Shown one piece after another: positions 1,663 through 4,358 of a stretch of 38,887 nucleotides of DNA. The translations under genes were made by a program, and so were the position numbers. The DNA comes from Candidatus Methylomirabilis sp. (GTDB lineage Bacteria; Methylomirabilota; Methylomirabilia; Methylomirabilales; Methylomirabilaceae), in the NCBI RefSeq assembly GCF_028716865.1, contig NZ_JAQUOY010000025.1:1-38887 (forward strand). The letters run 5' to 3'. Below the pieces are notes generated by a model, which saw only the letters and a program-made list of their open reading frames with translations, was not told the DNA's origin and did no database searches. Every line of letters begins with the position of its first letter. Within the stretch, counting starts at the first letter, position 1.

Positions 1663-2085
1663 ATGCGCGATCTTGGCTATGAGTTGTTCGAGACGACGGC
1701 GGATGTCGGAATCACGGCATGGGGCGAGACTCTGGAGGAGCTCTTTGCCAACGTCGCGAGAGGGATGTTTACGCTCATGGTCGAGGCCGGTACGGTACGC
1801 CCCGCAGGAGTTCTTTCTGTTGAGGCCAGAGGGATGGACCTTCCCTCCTTACTGGTTGCCTGGTTGAATGAGCTCTTATACCGCTGCGAGACTGAAGAAT
1901 GGGCGCCGGCAGACGTGCGAGTGGTGACGGTAGAAGGCGGGCACGCGAGTGGAGAGCTGGCGGGAGAGCCGGCAGAGGCGGGACGTCATCAGTTCAAGGG
2001 TGTGGTAAAGGCCGCCACCTATCACCTCCTCGAATGTCACAAGGATGGCGATCGCTGGCGAGCCCGGGTAGTGTTTGATGTGTAG
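1663..2085 (+). CDS. Archease family protein
   Basis: The 140-residue protein starts with the archease pattern: a short strand, then ETTADVGITAWGETLEELFANVARGMF, where the aspartate is a conserved metal ligand, and ends RWRARVVFDV as in family members. Archease in archaea and eukaryotes is the cofactor that speeds guanylylation and turnover of the tRNA/RNA ligase RtcB; many bacteria carry it next to rtcB. No rtcB lies in this window, so the partner is either elsewhere or the protein has another role. The ATG sits directly behind a repeat and lacks a good ribosome binding site. The gene ends two bases before the convergent endonuclease III gene. Confidence 0.9.
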   Translation: MRDLGYELFETTADVGITAWGETLEELFANVARGMFTLMVEAGTVRPAGVLSVEARGMDLPSLLVAWLNELLYRCETEEWAPADVRVVTVEGGHASGELAGEPAEAGRHQFKGVVKAATYHLLECHKDGDRWRARVVFDV

Positions 2086-3558: not shown

Positions 3559-3600
3559 TACACCCGATAAATTATCGGAGTGCGAGCTTAAGGAGAGATG

Positions 3601-3945
3601 ATGCTTGATATCCGCTATCGAATCGATCGAATGAAGGCGTTGCATGCCCTGAGGGAAAGCGGCCTCACTGAGACCCAGGCGCAGCGGTTGGACGAACTGT
3701 ACCAGGCGCGAGATGAGGACGGAATGCTTACTCTCCTGGAGGCTTCGACGCTGACCCCGCAAGCCAACAAGATGATCGACGTTCTCAGGCAGGCCAAGCT
3801 GGTTGGGGAGCGGCTAACTGAGCTGGGTCGAACCATTCCGCTTCCCCATGAGAAGATTCAGGAGCTTTACCCGCAGATCCGAGATATTAAGCTTGCATAC
3901 GAGCGGTTAACCACGGAGGCCGAACGATTTATGACGCGGGTCTGA
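3601..3945 (+). CDS. Hypothetical helical protein, first gene of the selenoprotein operon
   Basis: The 114-115 residue product is predicted to be almost entirely helical and charged, with heptad-like leucines (RLDELYQ, DVLRQAKLVGERLTEL, AYERLTTEAERF); no signal peptide, membrane segment or cysteine is visible. I do not recognise a family. Two ATG codons are adjacent (3598 and 3601); AAGGAGAG just upstream serves either. A good sigma-70-like promoter precedes it. The next gene, the Uxx-star selenoprotein, starts 40 bases after its stop, which suggests shared transcription and perhaps a shared redox or metal-handling job. This last point is inference only. Confidence 0.75.
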   Translation: MLDIRYRIDRMKALHALRESGLTETQAQRLDELYQARDEDGMLTLLEASTLTPQANKMIDVLRQAKLVGERLTELGRTIPLPHEKIQELYPQIRDIKLAYERLTTEAERFMTRV

Positions 3946-3985
3946 GGCGCTGACATCAGACTGGATCGAGAGGGTGGAGGAGGCC

Positions 3986-4210
3986 ATGGAGACATCAGTT
4001 ATTATCTACGGGAAGGATACCTGACCCTACACCTCGGCGGCCCGTGAGGAGTACGCCAGGCGGAAAGTCCCATTCACCTACCTCAATGTCAAGCAGGACC
4101 CGAAGGCGTTGGCACAGATGTTGGAGTTATCGAAAGGCTCGCGCGATGTCCCTGTTATTGTCGAGAAGGGCAAGGTGACCATCGGGTTTGGCGGCACCTG
4201 AGCGGTCTAG
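3986..4210 (+). CDS. Uxx-star family glutaredoxin-like selenoprotein with two selenocysteines
   Basis: Reading from ATG at 3986 (GGAGG ribosome site just upstream), the frame contains two TGA codons, at 4022-4024 and 4199-4201, before a TAG stop at 4208-4210. With TGA read as selenocysteine the product is 74 residues. Residues 5-16 read VIIYGKDTUPYT, the first beta strand and active site of glutaredoxin with U13 in place of the first cysteine of CPYT/CPYC. The middle holds the cis-proline motif DVPVIV of thioredoxin-fold proteins, and the end reads GFGGTUAV, placing U72 three residues from the C-terminus. That 'Uxx-stop' ending names the Uxx-star family. Each TGA is followed by a SECIS-like hairpin at equal distance. 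Neither conventional cysteine of the CxxC motif remains, so the two selenocysteines may work together or with glutathione/thioredoxin. A decoder that treats TGA as stop sees no gene here. Confidence 0.92.
4022..4060 (+). promoter_or_regulatory. bSECIS-like hairpin for the first selenocysteine codon
   Basis: After TGA at 4022-4024, CCT (4032-4034), a bulged C, and GGCG (4036-4039) pair with CGCC (4054-4057) and AGG (4058-4060). Inside, CC/GG (4042-4043 with 4048-4049) closes a GUGA apical loop. The loop GU lies 20-21 bases after the UGA, matching the spacing seen by the SelB elongation factor in E. coli fdhF. Drawn by eye, not folded by program. Confidence 0.6.
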
Positions 4211-4230
4211 AGGCGCCAACGGTCGTTGGC
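4199..4230 (+). promoter_or_regulatory. bSECIS-like hairpin for the second selenocysteine codon
   Basis: After TGA at 4199-4201, GCCAAC (4215-4220) pairs perfectly with GTTGGC (4225-4230) around the tetraloop GGUC (4221-4224). GGUC is the apical loop of the E. coli fdhF SECIS, and its distance from UGA (20-23 bases) differs by one from fdhF and equals that of the first hairpin. The hairpin lies beyond the TAG stop, so it is free of coding constraint and its conservation would reflect RNA function alone. Confidence 0.8.
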
Positions 4231-4247: not shown

Positions 4248-4358
4248 ATGAAACCTGAAATACGGCGCAACCTCAGTTACATTGGAGGGTTAGTTATGCT
4301 TTTAGCCTCCATGTTCGCGATGAGGTATGTTGCAAAGCTATTAATCTGGTTGGGTTAA
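4248..4358 (+). CDS. Small single-pass membrane protein, 36 residues
   Basis: ATG at 4248 is preceded by AAGGAAGAGGG and the frame ends at TAA 4356-4358. The product begins MKPEIRRNL, then has one hydrophobic segment (about residues 11-35: YIGGLVMLLASMFAMRYV and AKLLIWLG), with positive charges on the N-terminal side predicting an inside N-terminus. It starts 37 bases after the selenoprotein stop, directly behind the second SECIS hairpin, so it is probably the third gene of the same operon. I do not recognise a family. The good ribosome site and a membrane segment make it more likely real than chance, but at this length only conservation could settle it. Confidence 0.6.
   Translation: MKPEIRRNLSYIGGLVMLLASMFAMRYVAKLLIWLG

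Follow-up and report, generated by a model that had tools for sequence, protein, structure and literature searches.

A predicted double selenoprotein of UXX-star family 1 and its putative recoding hairpins in an NC10 (Methylomirabilis-group) genome

Can a short frame that is interrupted twice by UGA be a gene and, if so, how are the two UGAs read and what do they bring to the product? The question is raised by a frame of the window, i.e., the whole stretch of 38,887 nucleotides that was analysed, for which the initial annotation had proposed a thioredoxin-fold protein with two selenocysteines (Sec). We conclude with high confidence that the gene is an ordinary member of a known selenoprotein family, a bacterial double selenoprotein of NF041114 whose host belongs to the Methylomirabilis (NC10) group. 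The host was placed in this group because of its nearest relatives, the nearest records being Candidatus Methylomirabilis and other NC10 MAGs.

The gene, its family, and its surroundings

Re-reading the sequence gave the frame as first described, starting at 3986, with TGA at 4022 and 4199, TAG at 4208, and 74 residues. A ribosome-binding stretch resembling GGAGGAGG lies directly 5' of the ATG at 3986 (sequence 3966-3989), and the product with TGA read as Sec is METSVIIYGKDTUPYTSAAREEYARRKVPFTYLNVKQDPKALAQMLELSKGSRDVPVIVEKGKVTIGFGGTUAV, with UPYT at residues 13-16.

3986..4210, + strand: UXX-star selenoprotein family 1 gene; 74 residues, two Sec (U13, U72), TAG stop
4022..4024, + strand: first Sec-UGA; the U of UPYT, at the active site of the glutaredoxin fold
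4199..4201, + strand: second Sec-UGA; within GGTUAV-stop, third residue from the C-terminus
4208..4210, + strand: TAG terminator; TAG, TAA or TGA at this place in homologues

The gene is invisible to ordinary gene finders because its two UGA "stops" are read as Sec, and the standard-code list of open reading frames has none of at least 80 amino acids at 3986-4210. Plain ORF callers do miss it, as the initial annotation said of standard gene callers in general, but NCBI has dedicated models for the family. With Sec scored as Cys, the read-through translation matched one of these models from end to end (profile 1-70/70, 124.4 bits vs a cut-off of 72, E 1.5e-36), namely the NCBIfam equivalog NF041114 ("UXX-star selenoprotein family 1"), which bears out the Uxx-star name given initially. 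It also matched the Uxx_star subfamily NF041212 (105 bits vs a cut-off of 66), and its scores for UXX-star families 2 and 3 (NF041211, NF047338) and for the HUGP/GUXX-star fusion NF045501 were below their own cut-offs. The proposed fold is supported by the match to the Pfam glutaredoxin family (PF00462, 45.1 bits, E 1.2e-11, gathering cut-off 22.9) and by AlphaFold2, which on 40 homologues predicted a confident glutaredoxin fold (pLDDT 90) with Foldseek matches to Clostridium oremlandii Grx1 (TM-score about 0.78) and other glutaredoxins. We took the family description from a 2026 review, which lists NF041114 under the motif UxxT, with two Sec in each protein (PMC13188914). Since this is the listed state of the family, the double Sec is already known and its novelty is low. 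The 2008 GOS paper, which the review cites for the family, lists in its passages on Grx-like proteins a Grx-like family with UxxC and does not name NF041114 explicitly there.

The two Sec sites are borne out by comparison. TGA is found at both positions in 42 of 42 distinct homologous frames (40 frames including the window's own, plus L092 and L093), and after the second TGA every homologue has x-V or x-I and then a stop. These homologues come from NC10, Acidobacteria, Deltaproteobacteria, Binatia, and Nitrospirae MAGs; their alignment has a mean column identity of 69%, both Sec, the VP motif and GG are among its invariant residues, and K10 is conserved together with VP and GG. The family is present in 32 of the 95 genomes of the phylum, including all 15 of the genus, and both TGAs occur in each of the 32, as tabulated for 25 of them and read directly in the sequences of the other seven, which the table gives with one TGA because the alignment ends early and whose sequences show the second. 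Members of the Uxx-star subfamily from Thermus and Sulfobacillus (P0002, P0003) carry Cys at both sites, which provides Cys/Sec pairs for both positions. Both Sec/Sec and Cys/Cys homologues thus exist, which the initial annotation had made decisive for its reading. Two Sec in 74 residues mean that selenium is strongly preferred at both sites. The search of plasmids found only two relatives, both Cys forms, and that of viral contigs found none. Among the weaker class-level matches with one TGA, L076, L078 and L081 were set aside as NrdH-like or glutaredoxin-like proteins, having a single N-terminal Sec and lacking the Uxx-stop end.

The initial annotation also made its reading depend on selA, selB and selC being in the genome; these and selD are all present. 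Profile searches gave 604 bits for selA, 381 bits for selB, and 400 bits for selD, and the tRNA-Sec (67 bits) has the anticodon UCA. We regard it as almost certain that the SelB/tRNA-Sec machinery inserts Sec at both UGAs. The selD of this genome (L041) itself contains Sec (GAGUACK). At the same locus a frame that looks by eye to be of Memo type adjoins selD on the opposite strand; TGA read-through would give it the end GYAGLIVRUV, and this TGA is possibly a plain stop.

Two small ORFs flank the gene, and either may be unrelated to the system.

3598..3945, + strand: ORF of 115 aa, directly upstream; position conserved in close relatives
4248..4358, + strand: ORF of 36 aa with one membrane segment, MKPEIRRNLSYIGGLVMLLASMFAMRYVAKLLIWLG; located 3' of the UXX-star gene across most of the genus

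The ORF at 3598-3945 had no Pfam match. The order in the NC10 neighbourhood is archease, endonuclease III-like protein, LOG-type protein, small ORF, and then the UXX-star gene. This synteny is close and shared mainly with close relatives, and the comparison of neighbourhoods yielded no conserved functional partner. The archease of the window (1663-2085) is about 2 kb upstream of the UXX-star gene; a different NC10 family (L008, L010) has an archease ORF directly 5' of its UXX-star gene, ending within about 60 bases of the match. The plasmid Cys/Cys loci (L074, 2986-3246; L075, 1498-1725) lie among hypD/hypE/hypF-type genes: the Thermus plasmid has the order hypD-hypE-SIS-Uxx-hypF, and the Sulfobacillus plasmid has hypE and an acylphosphatase-type gene near the Uxx-star gene.

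Hairpins within and beyond the coding region

Bacterial SECIS elements usually lie within the coding region, and the published bSECIS model sets limits on the hairpin (PMC13188914): its apical loop has 3-9 nt, carries G in the first two positions and is 16-37 nt away from the UGA, and its minimum free energy (MFE) is at most -7.5 kcal/mol. Each Sec-UGA of the gene is followed by a hairpin within these limits.

4032..4060, + strand: SECIS-like hairpin of the first Sec, within the coding region; loop GTGA 19 nt after the UGA; MFE -14.5 kcal/mol
4215..4230, + strand: SECIS-like hairpin of the second Sec (GCCAAC-GGUC-GUUGGC), wholly 3' of the stop; loop GGTC 19 nt after the UGA; -10.3 kcal/mol

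Taken alone the two hairpins are no more stable than shuffled sequences (z of -0.7 for the first and -0.5 for the second), so their support rests on the comparison of homologues. Among 20 non-redundant members, 18 pass the bSECIS limits for the first UGA vs 30% of shuffles (L011 and L016 fail), and 17 pass for the second vs 38% of shuffles (L012, L017 and L021 fail), although the rows are related by descent and the comparison with shuffles overstates their independence. Different phyla retain the hairpin of the second UGA, its stem occurring in 34 sequence versions with a mean stem score of 6.45 vs 4.26 +/- 0.17 in shuffles; in the 40 rows the best hairpin found begins 3' of the stop codon in 39, the loop has a G among its first two bases in 38, and in most it is 15-22 nt from the UGA. 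Because this stretch is untranslated, the hairpin supports the second Sec independently of the protein alignment. Rfam SECIS_1 had no match in the genome, nor in any control genome, and a scan of all Rfam families around the gene gave none; these negatives are uninformative. We consider it very probable that the first Sec is directed by the hairpin in the coding region and the second by the one just past the stop. A recoding signal in the 3' untranslated stretch has a stem free of coding constraint, whose compensatory variation can be read directly, and makes a compact test case.

In 12 of the 42 homologues (L011, L012, L016, L017, L019, L023, L057, L061, L066, L072, L092, L093) a UGA also serves as terminator, nine bases past the one for Sec, so that near a single hairpin the first UGA is read as Sec and the second presumably ends translation. 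Where these rows have a clear hairpin, subtracting 9 from its spacing puts the loop 6-13 nt from the terminator, less than the minimum of 16 nt in the model. These distances would fit spacing as what discriminates between Sec and termination, and these homologues offer a test of how it decides between insertion and termination. Only two points were not found described in the literature searched: the extra-coding location of the second SECIS and the UGA/UGA pairs. Tentatively, and with somewhat less than even confidence in the whole, we propose that UXX-star genes have one SECIS that is wholly extra-coding, that in about a quarter of them this hairpin has to permit Sec at one UGA and a stop at a second UGA nine bases on, with spacing alone deciding, and that the product might form an intramolecular Sec13-Sec72 diselenide across a truncated glutaredoxin groove.

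Possible roles of the two selenocysteines

Several features bear on the function of the pair. The place of the second Cys of CxxC is taken by Thr, with no second Cys or Sec there, and the chain ends right behind the GG motif, whereas ordinary glutaredoxins continue from there into a last helix. Sec72 would be placed where glutaredoxins line the glutathione groove. The selenol of Sec13 in UPYT could make the attack, and Sec72, in the role of the missing second Cys of CxxC, could resolve or relay electrons; the outcome would be a diselenide intermediate or a two-selenol reductant. This predicted mechanism, in which Sec13 attacks and Sec72 resolves, is the likeliest of those considered, and we give even weight to its being right or wrong. 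The diselenide or selenenylsulfide chemistry put forward in the initial annotation stands likewise as a proposal.

Both UGAs could also encode Sec in a protein that does no redox cycling, its two selenolates binding or carrying a soft metal(loid) (Hg, As, Ni, Cu). The review suggests that the Sec of UXX-star proteins may be metal ligands (PMC13188914), and the Cys/Cys relatives adjoin hydrogenase-maturation genes on two unrelated plasmids. Yet there is no metal-transport or hydrogenase-maturation gene among the Pfam-tested neighbours in the window, and the conserved UPYT, VP and GG form the active-site pattern of glutaredoxins. We hold metal(loid) binding to be possible and the less likely of the two roles.

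Sec13 might instead be catalytic alone, as in a monoselenol glutaredoxin with glutathione as the resolving thiol and Sec72 as an auxiliary residue. UxxT leaves one chalcogen in the usual active site, and K10, VP and GG, which we take to be the glutathione-groove residues of glutaredoxins, are conserved. An auxiliary residue would nevertheless be expected to vary, whereas Sec72 is invariant in the 42 Sec forms, both Cys forms examined have Cys at its position, and its codon retains a recoding hairpin of its own; we find this account improbable.

It is very unlikely that the first UGA alone encodes Sec and the second is a true stop, with a protein ending in GGT. The position of the second hairpin outside the coding region, where bacterial SECIS elements are not usually found, would be in favour of it, but three arguments stand against. 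First, two codons and a further stop are kept after this UGA in all homologues (UxV/I-stop). Second, distant members have Cys there. Third, the hairpin beyond the stop is kept while its stem sequences change. Finally, a pseudogene or chance frame, to which two in-frame stops by the standard code could point, is refuted by the conservation of the same two codons in 15/15 genomes of the genus and across phyla at that mean column identity of 69%, and its probability is negligible.

Comparison with known systems

The preferred reading, a double selenoprotein in which Sec13 may attack and Sec72 resolve, can be set beside known proteins. Clostridium oremlandii cGrx1 (PDB 7c10, 7c12) shares the glutaredoxin fold (TM about 0.78) at 33-34% identity; unlike the window protein it has a CxxC-type motif (C16S in the mutant), and its solved chains are without a C-terminal Sec. 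Families NF041211, NF047338, and NF045501 have a related fold and C-terminal motif, but the window protein scores below their cut-offs. The Uxx-star glutaredoxin-like (seleno)proteins of NF041212 have the same fold and both redox positions, whereas their Cys forms in Thermus and Sulfobacillus have extra C-terminal residues past the motif and are set among hyp genes, unlike the window protein. From NF041114 ("Distant Grx-like protein 1") we found no difference, and the likeness comprises a full-length match above the cut-off, UxxT, two Sec, and the C-terminal U-x-x-stop.
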